Positions 12,339 through 20,391 of a stretch of 64,000 nt of DNA are shown in pieces (the stretch's first letter is position 1; each line of letters starts with the position of its first letter). The position numbers and the translations under genes were made by a program. This DNA comes from Streptomyces solicavernae (GTDB taxonomy: Bacteria > Actinomycetota > Actinomycetes > Streptomycetales > Streptomycetaceae). The notes beneath the pieces are model-generated. The model did no database searches. It worked only from the letters and a program-made list of their open reading frames with translations, and had not been told where the DNA came from. The stretch covers positions 1 to 64,000 of the forward strand of contig NZ_JASCIR010000027.1 in assembly GCF_029968095.1 (NCBI RefSeq). The letters are read 5' to 3'.

Positions 12339-12470
12339 GAAGCGGATCCCGCTGGTCGTGTACTCGGCGGTCTTGCGCGACTTCTTCCTCGACTTGAAGC
12401 ACGGGTACTTGGCCCACTTGCCGAAGACGCGAGCGCTCTCTGCCCGCGCCCGCAAGACAGCGAAGGCAGC
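12339..12470 (-). pseudogene. Remnant of an IS200/IS605-family tnpB
   Basis: The minus strand encodes FGKWAKYPCFKSRKKSRKT followed by AEYTTSGIRF, which matches the conserved segment in the N-terminal third of TnpB (consensus about KRAKYPRFKSRKKSRxSAEYTTSAFRF). Everything after it, including the RuvC nuclease domain, is missing, as is the true N-terminus. TnpB is the RNA-guided nuclease carried by IS605-type elements. Only a scar remains, marking past insertion at the edge of the island. Assignment rests on motif recognition. Confidence 0.7.
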
Positions 12471-12494
12471 CGCTCGAATATCTGGCTGGTTCAA

Positions 12495-12515
12495 GTCCCC
12501 CTGCGAATAGGGGAC
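12495..12515. other. Hairpin, possible insertion-sequence end
   Basis: GTCCCC at 12495-12500 pairs with GGGGAC at 12510-12515 around a nine-base loop, next to the tnpB scar. IS605 elements carry subterminal hairpins at both ends, so this may be a leftover end. It could also be the terminator of the MFS gene, although it is 230 bp away. Confidence 0.35.
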
Positions 12516-12585
12516 CTTGACCGCTTCCGCTGTCCGAGGAATCGTCATGCAAGGCGGTGCAATCGGCTCCACACCGGAGGCAGGC

Positions 12586-12846
12586 ATGGCATTACGGTTC
12601 ATCGGGATTGATCCCGACACGGGTCAGCAGGGTTCTCCCACAGTGTGGGTCGACGAGGAAAACGCGGAGCTGGTGTTCCAGGGCTGGAGGCCCAGCGCAG
12701 AACTGGAAGCCGAATGCGCAGCCACGGAGGTTCCCGGGCACGCCGTCGGGATACCGGACCACGAGGCCGTCATACGGATGCCCGCCCGCATGACACACCT
12801 GATCAGGGAGGCGTGCGATGACATCGAGCGACGCACCCAGCTTTGA
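12586..12846 (+). CDS. Small acidic hypothetical protein upstream of DUF6879 gene
   Basis: This 86-residue protein (MALRFIGIDPDTGQQGSPT to IERRTQL) is not recognised. GGAGGC lies close before the ATG at 12586. Its end overlaps the DUF6879 gene by 29 bases, so the two are likely translated together. An open frame continues upstream to 12517 but without a ribosome site. Small proteins of this kind commonly precede DUF6879 and XRE genes in streptomycetes. It may be part of the same regulatory set. Confidence 0.65.
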   Translation: MALRFIGIDPDTGQQGSPTVWVDEENAELVFQGWRPSAELEAECAATEVPGHAVGIPDHEAVIRMPARMTHLIREACDDIERRTQL

Positions 12847-13351
12847 AGACCTGCTCGCGGCTACCCAGCACTCCGCATGTCATCTGGAGATGCGCGATGC
12901 CTACGGCGTCGGCGACGAAAGGGAGGACTTCGAGCACTGGCGTCGCACCGGCGACCGGGATACCGATCCCACCTCGGCGTACTGGACCCCATGGGTTGAG
13001 CTGATCGGCCGCACATCGGGCCGGGGCGTGACGGTCCGTCGGGCGCGCATCGTGTCCGAGCCGGTGACCGAGTACATCAAGTACGAGCATGCGGGTGCCT
13101 CAGTGAACGTGCACGCCGGGGAAGACGTGCGATGGCTGCCCCGACGTCATGCCTCAGACATCGCGTTGCCAGGCAACGACTTCTGGCTCTTCGACCGCAC
13201 TGCGGTTCTGTTCAACCACTTTGCGGGCGACGGGAACTGGTCTGAGCCGAAGTGGGAAGTGCGCACCGAGCCGGCCGTCATCGAGTTGGCTGCACGGGCC
13301 TTCGAAACGGTGTGGGAGCGCGGCATCCCCCACGAGAAGTACGTCGTCTGA
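12818..13351 (+). CDS. DUF6879 family protein
   Basis: The 177-residue protein reads SFEDLLAATQHSACHLEMRD, then VRRARIVSEPVTEYIKYEH, WLPRRHASDIALPGNDFWLFD and FETVWERGIPHEKYVV, the typical shape of DUF6879 proteins. Their biochemical role is not known. They occur almost always beside XRE/DUF5753 regulators in actinobacteria, and this copy is 24 bp upstream of one. The ATG has GGGAGG seven bases before it. A role as partner or effector of the regulator is inference. Confidence 0.85.
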   Translation: MTSSDAPSFEDLLAATQHSACHLEMRDAYGVGDEREDFEHWRRTGDRDTDPTSAYWTPWVELIGRTSGRGVTVRRARIVSEPVTEYIKYEHAGASVNVHAGEDVRWLPRRHASDIALPGNDFWLFDRTAVLFNHFAGDGNWSEPKWEVRTEPAVIELAARAFETVWERGIPHEKYVV

Positions 13352-13375
13352 CCAACACGACTGAAGACCTGGTAC

Positions 13376-14224
13376 ATGACTGCCTCCCCCTCGTCAGCCG
13401 CCCAGGCTGCCCGTGAACGCCTCGCTGTCAGGCTGCGGGACCTACGCCGTGAAGCTGGACTGACTGGCGAGGAGTTGGCCCGTCAGTGCGGTTGGAGCCC
13501 GTCGAAGCGATCCCGGATCGAGAACGCCAGGACTCCTCCCTCGGACGCGGACGTGCAGACCTGGTGCGCAGCGTGCGGCGCCGAAGAATTGGCGGCCGAT
13601 CTTGTGGCCGCCAACCGGCAGGCCGATCAGATGTACGTGCACTGGAAGAAGCTGCACCGGCACGGCATGCGCCGCGCTCAGGACGAGGTGCTGCCGCTGT
13701 ATGCGGGCACGCGGCACTTCCGGATCTACTGCTCCAATGTCGTTCCCGGCGTCCTCCAGACCGAGGCATACGCGACCGCGCTGCTGTCGACGATCGCACG
13801 TTTCCAAGGCACGCCGGACGATGCACCCGACGCTGCCCTCTCCCGGACAGAGCGATCTCAGACGCTGCACGAGGGTGGGCACACCTTCGCGTTTCTGCTG
13901 GAAGAGACGGTCCTGCGGTACCGCATCGGAGATGCCGAGACCATGTCCGGGCAACTCGGCAACCTCCTGGCGGTCATGGCCCTGCCGAACGTCAGCCTCG
14001 GCATCATCCCGTTCACTGCTCCGCGTCAGATCTGGCCACTCGAAGCGTTCTATCTCTTCGACGACCGACAGGTAAGCGCAGAACTTCTGACCGCCGCCGT
14101 GAACGTCACCGCGCCGAGCGAGACGGAGGTGTACGCGAAGGCCTTCGCAGGACTCGCCGAAATCGCCGTGTATGGGAGCAGGGCACGGAACTTGATCACG
14201 GACGCCATTGCCGCACACGGGTAA
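13376..14224 (+). CDS. XRE-family helix-turn-helix regulator with DUF5753 domain
   Basis: The 282-residue protein has an N-terminal helix-turn-helix (RLRDLRREAGLTGEELA, CGWSPSKRSRIENAR; about 15-65) and a C-terminal DUF5753 region (YAGTRHFRIYCSNVVPGVLQT, FLLEETVLRYRIG, SLGIIPF). These proteins are abundant in Streptomyces, and relatives such as WhiJ control development, often with a small DUF397 partner. Here the partner position is taken by the DUF6879 protein. It is the third gene of an apparent operon. No strong ribosome site is seen before the ATG at 13376. Confidence 0.9.
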   Translation: MTASPSSAAQAARERLAVRLRDLRREAGLTGEELARQCGWSPSKRSRIENARTPPSDADVQTWCAACGAEELAADLVAANRQADQMYVHWKKLHRHGMRRAQDEVLPLYAGTRHFRIYCSNVVPGVLQTEAYATALLSTIARFQGTPDDAPDAALSRTERSQTLHEGGHTFAFLLEETVLRYRIGDAETMSGQLGNLLAVMALPNVSLGIIPFTAPRQIWPLEAFYLFDDRQVSAELLTAAVNVTAPSETEVYAKAFAGLAEIAVYGSRARNLITDAIAAHG

Positions 14225-14287
14225 CTCGCGTGCAATCTGATGCAAGGAAGTGGAGCACCAAATGCCGCCGCTTCTAGCGTCGTTGGC

Positions 14288-14470
14288 ATGGCAATCAGCA
14301 TCAGCGCATACGTGATCCACGCGGACGGTCACCGCACCGGAGCGCGCACCTTACACGCGGGCGAGGGCGGCCCTCCACTGTCGTCGAGCGCGATGCCGAT
14401 GTGCCGGTGCCACCGCTGCAAGCCCAAGGCTCCAGCGTCCCCCACCGAAAGAAGGGACCGCACGACGTGA
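14288..14470 (+). CDS. Small Cys-containing hypothetical protein (60 aa)
   Basis: Reading from MAISISAYVIHADGH to the end, the chain has a C-terminal MCRCHRCKPK cluster with three cysteines and a histidine. Its stop overlaps the GTG of the next gene (GTGA, 14467-14470), which is the best evidence that it is translated. An in-frame ATG at 14240 would add 16 residues. No ribosome site stands out for either. The family is not recognised. The cysteine cluster could bind metal. Confidence 0.45.
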   Translation: MAISISAYVIHADGHRTGARTLHAGEGGPPLSSSAMPMCRCHRCKPKAPASPTERRDRTT

Positions 14471-14970
14471 GCACAGTCCTTGAACCCCGCACCGTGTCTA
14501 CGGGCACCCGTGACCCACGAGAACTCCTCAACGCGGTACAGCCACAGGTGAAGCACCTGACGATCAACGTCTTCGACAGCGGCATGACCCTCTGGGACCG
14601 GGAAATCGCCCTGCTGTTGCGCGACAACGAGATGGTCCGCGACATGGCCGAGCGCATCCTCGGGAACGCCGTGATGTACATGCTCACCTCGATCGAGCGC
14701 CCTGACTGGCACCTCGGCGTCGGCAAGCTCGTCGACAAGGGCGTTCACCAGATCTACTTGGACACCCCGGTCCTGTTCGCGTTCTTCGCCACCTACAACA
14801 GCGGCGAGTTCAAGCACCACGCACCTTTCATCCAGCGCCGCCGCGACGGCATCGTCTTACGCACCGCAGACATGCTGCGCGCCAACGGGTTCGAGCCCGA
14901 CGGGGAGCTGTGGGCCGTGGACGGCGCGGAGTGCTCTCCGTGCGACAACATGGTCCCCGACTCCCACTGA
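14467..14970 (+). CDS. Hypothetical protein (167 aa)
   Basis: This protein begins STVLEPRTVSTGTRDPREL, has a helical middle (DREIALLLRDNEMVRDMAER) and ends with WAVDGAECSPCDNMVPDSH. No family is recognised. It is translationally coupled to the preceding 60-residue frame. A Cys-x2-Cys pair near the C-terminus is the only obvious motif. It lies between the XRE regulator and a SAM methyltransferase, 104 bp from the latter. Base composition is less GC-rich than in the flanking core genes, consistent with transfer. Confidence 0.65.
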   Translation: MSTVLEPRTVSTGTRDPRELLNAVQPQVKHLTINVFDSGMTLWDREIALLLRDNEMVRDMAERILGNAVMYMLTSIERPDWHLGVGKLVDKGVHQIYLDTPVLFAFFATYNSGEFKHHAPFIQRRRDGIVLRTADMLRANGFEPDGELWAVDGAECSPCDNMVPDSH

Positions 14971-14983
14971 CCCCTTGACCGAC

Positions 14984-15049
14984 CCGCGGTGGGACCAAAT
15001 TTCTCGCCGGCCACCAGGACCAACGTCCCACCGCGGCCGGGTGGCCGGC
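14984..15049 (+). promoter_or_regulatory. Interlocked inverted repeats in the methyltransferase leader
   Basis: Repeat A (CCGCGGTGGGAC, 14984-14995) pairs perfectly over 12 bp with 15025-15036. Repeat B (GCCGGCCACC, 15006-15015) pairs perfectly over 10 bp with 15040-15049. The order A, B, A', B' means the hairpins cannot both form as simple stems; they are alternatives or a pseudoknot. The ribosome site GAGGAA of the methyltransferase begins about 14 bases after B'. A regulatory leader or a protein-binding DNA site are both possible. Confidence 0.6.
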
Positions 15050-15074
15050 CCAACCGCCATACAGAGGAATCCAG

Positions 15075-15728
15075 TTGTCCGCACGCCACGACATCAACGC
15101 CGAACGCGAACTCTGGGACACCTACGCCGAGAGCGCCTTCAAGCCGGACGCCGAGCCGGTCTTCTGCTGGACCCAGTACTCAGGGCACGGGCCCGGCCCG
15201 GAACTCCTCGGCGCACCGGCCACCGTCCTGGAAATCGGCTGTGGCACGGGCCGGGCCCTGGCCTACCTCACGGGTCGGGGCATCAAGGCCACAGGGGTAG
15301 ACCTGTCCCCGGTCATGGTGAGTAAGACCCGGGAGCACTGGAAGGCAACCGGGGCGCGGTTCGAATGCGCCGAAGTCCTCGACTACCTCGCCGACACGAC
15401 CGACACCTTCGACGCGGTGTACTCCATCTTCGGCGCCGCCTGGTTCACAGCCCCAGCCCGTTTGTTCCCGCTCGTCGCTGAACGGTTGACTCCCGGCGGG
15501 GCGTTCGTCTTCTCGCAGCCGCCGGCCATTCCCGGCGCCTACGGCCCGCAGGGCATGTACAAGGGCGGCTTCGCCGGACCGGCCATGTTCACCTACCGCT
15601 ACAGCTACACGCCCCGGAAGTGGAAGAGACTGCTTCGTGGCGCCGGATTCGCGGACGCCGACGTACAGGTCCTCGACGCGCCCCGGACAGGGCACATCGG
15701 CACCCTGATCGGGCGGGCCACCACCTGA
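15075..15728 (+). CDS. Class I SAM-dependent methyltransferase
   Basis: The 217-residue protein has motif I LEIGCGTGRALAYL (about 51-64), an acidic residue after the second strand (ATGVDLSPVMV) and the LTPGGAFVFSQPP segment, as in small-molecule methyltransferases. The start is TTG at 15075 with GAGGAA six bases upstream; no ATG or GTG fits better. The substrate is unknown. It closes the island and faces the tmRNA gene, with terminators between them. The structured leader just upstream suggests its expression is controlled after transcription starts. Confidence 0.85.
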   Translation: MSARHDINAERELWDTYAESAFKPDAEPVFCWTQYSGHGPGPELLGAPATVLEIGCGTGRALAYLTGRGIKATGVDLSPVMVSKTREHWKATGARFECAEVLDYLADTTDTFDAVYSIFGAAWFTAPARLFPLVAERLTPGGAFVFSQPPAIPGAYGPQGMYKGGFAGPAMFTYRYSYTPRKWKRLLRGAGFADADVQVLDAPRTGHIGTLIGRATT

Positions 15729-15738
15729 CAGGCCACGA

Positions 15739-15763
15739 GCCCCGCCGCACCAAGCGACGGGGC
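15739..15763 (+). terminator. Hairpin after the methyltransferase gene
   Basis: GCCCCG at 15739-15744 pairs with CGGGGC at 15758-15763, ten bases after the stop codon. The stem is short and lacks a T-run. Confidence 0.45.
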
Positions 15764-15785
15764 CCCAGCGTGCCCCCAAGACATG

Positions 15786-15828
15786 CAAAAAGCCCCTGAC
15801 CTAGCGACAAAAGAGCAGGTCAGGGGCC
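15786..15828 (-). terminator. Rho-independent terminator of tmRNA
   Basis: GCCCCTGACCT at 15792-15802 pairs perfectly over 11 bp with AGGTCAGGGGC at 15817-15827. On the minus strand the stem is followed by TTTTTG, a classic intrinsic terminator starting ten bases after the tmRNA 3' end. In the other direction it can also stop the methyltransferase transcript. Confidence 0.9.
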
Positions 15829-15836
15829 ACATGAGG

Positions 15837-16225
15837 TGGTGGAGATGGCGGGAATCGAACCCGCGTCCAACGGTGCGGAATCAGGGCTTCTCCGTGTGCA
15901 GTTCGCTGCGATTTTCTCGGCCCCGGAGATCACGCGAACAAGTCTCCGACGGGCCCAGCCACTGTTTGATTTCCCGCTGCACCCCGTGACCGGGTGTAAC
16001 GGTTTAGTTCCCTTGATTATGCCAGGATCCGGGTCGGGAACGTCCCCGGGCTGACACCCATTAAGGGTCCTTCACTCACCGCCTATCAGGCAGCGAGGGC
16101 GAAGGACTGGGAATCGCGCTTGGTGTTGGCGATTATTGGTTGCGACATATGGTTAACGAGATCATTGCCGCTTCCTCGACACGCTTCCCCTGCTTCGACA
16201 TCCGCTGTCGAAACCGATCATCCCC
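15837..16225 (-). ncRNA. ssrA: tmRNA (transfer-messenger RNA)
   Basis: The tRNA-like ends are clear: 5' GGGGATGATCGG at 16225 pairs with 3' CATCTCC-ACCA ending at 15837, with CCA encoded. The T-arm is GCGGGTTCGATTCCCGC. The messenger part encodes the tag ANTKRDSQSFALAA followed by TGA (16131-16087). tmRNA rescues stalled ribosomes by adding this degradation tag, together with SmpB encoded next upstream. Length is 389 nt, normal for Streptomyces. A -10-like TACGAT with TGGCAC 18 bp before it lies upstream on the minus strand (near 16290) and may be the promoter. Confidence 0.97.
16087..16131 (-). other. tmRNA tag reading frame
   Basis: The resume codon GCC is at 16131-16129 and the frame reads ANTKRDSQSFALAA then TGA at 16089-16087. 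The C-terminal LAA is the part read by Clp proteases. Confidence 0.93.
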
Positions 16226-16360
16226 ATGTTGATTTTTCAAGATGGCCCCCGAGGGGACCGCAGCCCCGTCACCTGCGGAGCGTGCTCCATCGTACAGACA
16301 GAACGCACGACGGTGCCAGCTAATTCCCGGCTCACCCCCTGCGGCAACCCTGCGGCACCC

Positions 16361-20354: not shown

Positions 20355-20391
20355 CGAAAGGGCCCGGAGCTGGATGCTCCGGGCCCTTTCG
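20355..20391. terminator. Strong bidirectional terminator
   Basis: Sixteen bases from CGAAAGGGCC (20355-20370) pair perfectly with 20376-20391 around the loop TGGAT. The ends give A- and T-rich flanks (GAAA/TTTC). It serves the zinc-ribbon gene on the plus strand and the LAETG gene on the minus strand. Confidence 0.92.

Follow-up and report, generated by a model that had tools for sequence, protein, structure and literature searches.

In a stretch of Streptomyces solicavernae DNA of 64,000 nucleotides (contig NZ_JASCIR010000027.1, positions 1 to 64,000; the window in what follows), the spacer between a gene that we refer to as ORF1 and a methyltransferase gene (MT) carries two perfect inverted repeats, A and B, that are interlocked with each other. 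We consider this element, at a probability of about 0.6 and from the evidence of sequence comparison, to be the intercistronic hairpin of the ORF1-MT gene pair, terminator-like or decay-blocking in its predicted action, and present here in a doubled form whose two stems would compete. Across the family, it is the structure of this hairpin, more than its sequence, that is conserved. The genes and repeats on which the analysis is based are the following.

12818..13351, + strand: DUF6879 gene, the upstream neighbour (Pfam PF21806, 3e-54)
13376..14224, + strand: XRE/DUF5753 regulator gene (Pfam PF19054, 1.6e-29; HTH_31, 2.7e-16)
14288..14470, + strand: 60-residue open frame with a CxCHxC pattern, read from the sequence; its stop overlaps the ORF1 start (GTGA)
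14467..14970, + strand: ORF1, 167 residues, conserved family A3, predicted to be all-helical
14984..14995, + strand: 5' arm of stem A, which begins 13 nt past the ORF1 stop, the canonical 5' position of the family hairpin
15006..15015, + strand: 5' arm of stem B, within the loop of A
15025..15036, + strand: 3' arm of stem A (A'), within the loop of B
15040..15049, + strand: 3' arm of stem B (B'), 25 nt from the MT start codon, a distance typical of the family hairpin's 3' arm
15063..15069, + strand: MT ribosome site AGAGGAA, read from the sequence, with a similar site in relatives; it lies outside both stems
15075..15728, + strand: MT, class I SAM-dependent methyltransferase gene (Methyltransf_25, 8.7e-16), with a TTG start

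Layout of the interlocked repeats and their neighbourhood

The DUF6879, XRE/DUF5753, CxCHxC, ORF1 and MT reading frames are all co-directional, and the XRE/DUF5753 gene ends 0.76 kb upstream of the repeats. The small CxCHxC frame had no matches in PHROGs or PADLOC, the two databases searched for it, and ORF1 had none in Pfam, NCBIfam, PHROGs or PADLOC. An AlphaFold2 model of the ORF1 product (all-helical, pLDDT 82.6) retrieved nothing at E <=0.001 with Foldseek (best VIA Z 3.1), and a profile of the ORF1 family found no solved relative.

Two further inverted repeats of the window can be mentioned here. A hairpin at 15788-15824 (GCCCCTGACCT...AGGTCAGGGGC), which is preceded on the + strand by a series of A's (a T-run on the - strand), is probably the terminator of the tmRNA gene at 15837-16225 on the - strand. 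The longest of the window's three perfect inverted repeats of at least 12 bp and a span of no more than 70 is a 16-bp repeat at 20355-20391. A tmRNA-borne island with flanking repeats was considered and rejected: the 32-nt 3' end of the tmRNA occurs only once in the window, and the word "island" that had been applied to this neighbourhood is therefore not confirmed. No tmRNA was detected in the fetched flanks of the 50 relatives that were scanned.

The repeats themselves follow each other on the DNA in the order A-B-A'-B' (14984-15049) within an ORF1-MT spacer of 104 nt. Pairing is perfect in A (12/12) as well as in B (10/10), and B is part of a 13-nt pair that matches at 92%. The preliminary description had placed a 12-bp and a 10-bp perfect repeat at exactly these positions, between ORF1 and the MT ribosome site, and had recognized that as full-length stems they are mutually exclusive; on all of these points it was correct. 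The two stems are nearly equal in predicted energy, with -24.5 kcal/mol for A and -21.8 kcal/mol for B as bare stems and -26.4 and -28.1 kcal/mol, respectively, for the folded segments. Their loops (29 nt for A and 24 nt for B) are both longer than any among 96 relatives, and while the 5' arm of A occupies the usual 5' place of the family hairpin, on the 3' side it is B' that fits the family better than A', which ends 38 nt before the MT start codon. A covariance model built from the relatives gave the window leader 15.6 bits and picked neither A nor B. Loop 3 of a pseudoknot would consist of only three bases, as had been noted before, and since these would have to cross a 12-bp stem, the geometry makes a complete pseudoknot strained and unlikely. 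The order of transcription, in which A' precedes B', implies that A should fold first.

Repeats of this kind had been judged unlikely to arise by chance, and that judgment holds with some tempering. Dinucleotide shuffling of the 110-nt leader, repeated 20,000 times, produced a 12-bp repeat in 15 of the runs; an interlocked 12/10 pair appeared in none of these 20,000, in none of 15 shuffles of the whole window, and nowhere in 1,123,507 bases of fetched loci, which are partly redundant and contain 461 perfect repeats of at least 10 bp (179 of them of at least 12 bp). A and B are also the sole interlocked case among the window's 19 perfect repeats of at least 10 bp and a span of no more than 70. 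The failure of shuffles and fetched loci to reproduce the interlock argues for more than chance. On the other side, the entire region is not distinguished from its shuffles by folding stability (z -1.04, with 32 of 200 shuffles at least as stable), and the 10-mer of B, with up to one mismatch, is enriched in the window (52 sites where 32.1 ± 5.4 are expected), so that the shuffles may understate the chance pairing of B. Chance nevertheless leaves the interlocking of two perfect stems unexplained.

A hairpin that accompanies the end of ORF1

ORF1 and MT form a conserved gene pair in Streptomyces; the nearest named relatives are from Streptomyces and Actinacidiphila. A starting set of 192 loci, each hit by blast with the query proteins, yielded 124 distinct ORF1-MT spacers after removal of 52 duplicate spacers, 10 rows without ORF1, 4 with MT hits below 55%, 1 without MT and 1 without an adjacent ORF1 end. 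Hairpins were counted in the 121 leaders of at least 60 nt, a number that includes the window and excludes three shorter leaders (L021, L060 and L103). The sampling of genomes is uneven, with some redundancy, and the stems were called by simple rules.

With G·U pairs allowed, a stem of at least 10 bp is present in 93 of the 121 distinct leaders, and only 4 of the 121 have no 8-bp stem. For a baseline, genes were predicted by a simple GC-frame rule and the same test was applied to the gaps of 50-250 nt that separate co-directional neighbours: 7 of 56 gaps outside the gene pair contained a stem of at least 10 bp, as against 13 of 19 gaps between ORF1 and MT; stricter gene prediction changed these figures to 3 of 28 and 10 of 13. 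Restricting the stems to perfect Watson-Crick pairing leaves 72 of 113 leaders better than their shuffles (p <=0.05) and 41 that are not, many of the stems containing G·U. The placement of the hairpin is regular. Among 96 relatives, its 5' arm starts a median of 13 nt after the ORF1 stop, its loop has a median length of 10 nt (range 3-23), and its stem ends a median of 28 nt before the MT start.

Compensatory change is apparent in an alignment (A2) of 63 leaders that were hand-chosen for diversity out of 102 relatives. The stem is paired in 93.8% of the cells of this alignment, and 39 cells are changed on both sides of a pair, compared with 12.2 ± 3.4 after shuffling (0 of 500 shuffles reach 39) and with no more than 19 in slid controls; relatedness inflates such double-change counts, an inflation that the slid controls share. 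RNAalifold applied to A1, an alignment of 34 more uniform leaders, gave a weak consensus, with only 4 of the hairpin's pairs recovered and almost no covariation. The mismatches within the helices bear on the nature of the conserved molecule. In 119 leader helices, G·T outnumbers A·C by 102 to 62 (99 to 75 when the helices are left untrimmed), compared with 4187 to 3987 in control helices; taken leader by leader, G·T is favoured in 45, A·C in 19 and neither in 55, although related leaders are not independent of each other. This excess points to coding-strand RNA, and away from a DNA palindrome, as the molecule that folds. Counting over predicted-structure columns gave a more extreme 70 to 5, a ratio that was set aside because the prediction itself biases it.

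What is not shared with the family is the interlock. Among the 124 leaders, interlocked perfect stems above 7/7 exist in the window only; the near-misses are L007, at 7/7, and L193, at 8/8 when G·U is counted. The preliminary description had named homologous leaders that keep neither stem as a result that would refute it, and on this measure the comparison is half unfavourable to it: most of the homologues retain a single stem, close to where A lies, and in the other 123 leaders no perfect stems interlock above 7/7.

Loci in which the gene pair is broken indicate which of the two genes the hairpin accompanies. Ten MT loci have no intact adjacent ORF1. The end of ORF1 persists in 2 of them, and in the other 8 the hairpin is either missing or beheaded. 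In three of the 8 (L052, L068 and L069) the outer 5' arm is gone at a junction with foreign sequence and the 3' part is left; these junctions inside the hairpin are apparent recombination breakpoints. L052 and L069, which are counted as beheaded, re-form an 8-bp stem by using loop bases. The family hairpin is absent from L070, L085, L086, L093 and L108, with other stems of 8, 8 and 9 bp in L086, L093 and L108, respectively. Of the two loci that keep the ORF1 end, L101 has no 8-bp stem and L105 has a 9-bp stem. Only 1 of the 10 loci has a stem of at least 10 bp, and this one (in L068) is an unrelated 18-bp stem further upstream. Since the hairpin is mostly lost at MT loci without ORF1, it appears not to be needed by MT and to go with the ORF1 end instead. 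At 20 chosen loci of distant ORF1 paralogues (36-45% identical), a stem of at least 10 bp lies within 110 nt of the stop in 17; measured from the first stop-codon base, its 5' arm follows at 9-51 nt. An MT-like hit is located downstream in 19 of the 20.

By eye, several of the distant paralogue loci L202, L207, L210, L211, L212, L215 and L216 share a block like GGGTGAGATT past the hairpin, mostly followed by GAACCGGCC; this block is a possible promoter for the methyltransferase gene that follows.

The search for a close relative of the window leader that would be able to test stem B extended over three genus draws (392, 392 and 393 genomes) and a family draw (394 genomes), which overlap, and over GTDB contigs (the best 80 of 242 stretches encoding a relative), IMG/VR (13 loci), phages and plasmids. 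No such relative was found in any of these sets, the closest MT relatives (best 80 of 242 GTDB stretches; 13 IMG/VR loci) being 77% identical, and a scan for the A-B pattern across viral contigs found none. Used as a query, the leader found matches in 56 of 393 genomes. Most of these fall on the end of ORF1 or the start of MT, and the others on short stretches of the spacer. Fifteen of the spacer matches were inspected and proved to be unrelated loci; none had ORF1, MT, XRE or DUF6879 within the fetched stretch, and none of the 15 included the 5' arm of A. The best-shared match, in five genomes (L237-L241), extends over 51 columns at 80% and lies within an open frame of another gene. This stretch resembles the B part of the leader, with the arms GCCGGCCA and TGGCCGGC.

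The gene pair also travels in phages. MT is present in seven Streptomyces phage records, and in Caelumvirus TrvxScott, the one record examined of the seven, it adjoins ORF1. The TrvxScott pair, gp48-gp47 (L111 2417-3651), has the hairpin as well and lies near a serine integrase gene.

Alternative readings of the two stems

Two mutually exclusive stems ahead of an enzyme gene invite comparison with regulatory RNAs, and the preliminary description had preferred a switch between the stems to a full pseudoknot and had suggested a switch or attenuator. Attenuators of the trp type work through mutually exclusive alternative hairpins in a spacer or leader, and the window resembles them in this respect; it differs in that neither stem is followed by a U-tract and that the second stem is not conserved. 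An RNA switch or attenuator in which a ligand, a protein or the speed of transcription would pick A or B, and so set the expression of MT, would fit the absence of the interlock from shuffles and the near-equality of the energies of A and B. Against it count the restriction of the interlock to 1 of 124 leaders, with L007 and L193 as near-misses, an MT ribosome site that both stems leave uncovered, and the lack of any Rfam match, and it is unlikely on balance. The close balance of the two energies keeps some probability with the earlier switch, although the relatives offer nothing in its favour, and of the attenuator only the weak sense of a terminator-like hairpin between two genes stands; among the homologues one stem is conserved and the interlocked one is not, which is not what a two-state attenuator would leave behind. 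A more elaborate version, to which we give quite a low probability, would have the spacer hairpin turned into a four-segment bistable RNA (1:3 versus 2:4) in which transcription speed or a bound factor decides whether MT is transcribed; the factor would perhaps be ORF1 itself, which the hairpin accompanies in evolution. Some SAM and SAH riboswitches are pseudoknots ahead of genes of methyl metabolism, and an A-B-A'-B' topology that precedes a SAM-using enzyme recalls them. A functional pseudoknot, for example a SAM or SAH riboswitch, is nonetheless improbable in the extreme, given that a loop 3 of 3 nt would have to cross a 12-bp stem, that the topology is private to one genome among those compared, and that an Rfam search of the leader found no family at the gathering score. 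A SAM riboswitch or other known RNA family was rejected on that last result; a lax search (E <=10) returned five sub-threshold eukaryotic families, the best at E 0.093. Among the listed paper titles that concern pseudoknot riboswitches of Streptomyces, or methyltransferase together with XRE/DUF397 or DUF5753, none names the element or the gene pair.

Inverted repeats are also typical operators, an XRE/DUF5753 gene lies close upstream, and the repeats had been suggested as a DNA site for its product. The association predicted by that suggestion is missing: stems of at least 10 bp are equally common with an XRE hit in the fetched flanks (23 of 29 leaders) and without one (25 of 31). The window has no further site for the A motif at fewer than 2 mismatches, leader sequences vary widely, and the preference for G·T over A·C speaks for RNA, all of which makes an XRE operator highly improbable. 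We regard as very unlikely an internal MT promoter composed of TTGACC (14975-14980) and an AAATTT-like -10 element (14997-15002), in which case the MT transcript would carry B as a hairpin at its 5' end. The two hexamers are 16 nt apart by eye, and many relatives have TAnnnT immediately before the hairpin; against this, a scan for the E. coli-type consensus found no promoter in 12400-16300, other promoter types being outside that consensus, and the last T of TAnnnT co-varies with its partner in the stem (TACGCT to TACGCC), so that it is not kept for itself. A further proposal concerns stem B only and is compatible with the intercistronic hairpin. The interlock could be a neutral by-product of templated mutation or insertion in the loop of the usual hairpin, which would have created a second perfect stem that serves no function, and we consider this a real possibility, if somewhat short of even odds. 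The interlock occurs in no relative, the 5' arm of A and the 3' arm of B are at the normal positions of the family, the two loops are longer than in the 96 relatives, B-like 10-mers are common in the window, and the foreign-sequence junctions of MT loci L052, L068 and L069 fall within the hairpin. The perfect pairing of 12 and 10 bp, in opposition to this, implies a recent origin or selection.

Predicted action of the intercistronic hairpin

The interpretation of A and B as a doubled intercistronic hairpin predicts the following course of events. As RNA polymerase leaves ORF1, a stem would fold behind it and serve as a partial terminator that lacks a U-tract, as a block to 3'-to-5' decay, or as both. 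The ORF1 mRNA would thereby be more abundant and more stable than the read-through mRNA that carries MT, and the MT ribosome site would remain free. In the window, the loop of the hairpin would have expanded to 29 nt with A at the canonical position, and B, at nearly equal energy, would compete with it. Because a strong hairpin remains in the spacer whichever stem forms, B is more likely to be redundant or incidental than to be part of a ligand-controlled switch.

The composition of the sequences behind the stems is compatible with such a role. Over the 8 nt that follow the stem, U occurs fewer than 3 times in 79 of 97 cases and at least 3 times in 18; in the window there are fewer than 3 both after A' (CCGGGTGG) and after B' (CCAACCGC), as in the U-lacking class of 3' ends described below. 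There is no U-run behind A' or B' of the kind that marks a canonical U-tract terminator, and the terminator scan, being limited to loops of 3-8, was incapable of finding A or B. In the portions of a Term-seq study of S. clavuligerus that are cited here, 353 of the 1,427 3' ends that were mapped consist of a strong stem with no U-tract behind it, a class that its authors liken to I-shaped terminators or to the 3' ends of Rho-terminated transcripts (PMC8269248). The best 40-nt window of the leader, at -24.0 kcal/mol (30 C), lies just past the cut-off of -23 given in those portions (PMC8269248), which is passed by 118 of the 121 leaders (median -32.7 kcal/mol). The element shares with the U-lacking 3' ends, as these excerpts present them, a long GC-rich stem and, usually, the lack of a U-tract; it differs from them in its location between co-directional genes, in the interlocking of its two stems and in being known from sequence alone (PMC8269248). 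The same source states, in the text used here, that long loops weaken terminators (PMC8269248), and the window's loops of 29 and 24 nt, beyond the range of the family, therefore count against the terminator reading. According to the excerpted part of a survey of 13 genomes, poly-U is unnecessary and hairpins past stop codons often cluster (PMC8355165). The window is similar to these clusters in having more than one hairpin close behind a stop with poly-U dispensable; in the part of the survey drawn on, those hairpins are single or clustered, whereas the stems in the window are mutually exclusive (PMC8355165).

The conserved hairpin would set ORF1-MT apart as a unit that probably yields its two products in unequal amounts. 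An interlock that tempts one to propose a riboswitch was resolved through 124 homologous spacers into one stem that belongs to the gene pair and a second pairing that is private to one genome. The ORF1-MT spacers thus provide an example, in high-GC bacteria, of an intercistronic hairpin whose structure is conserved while its sequence varies.
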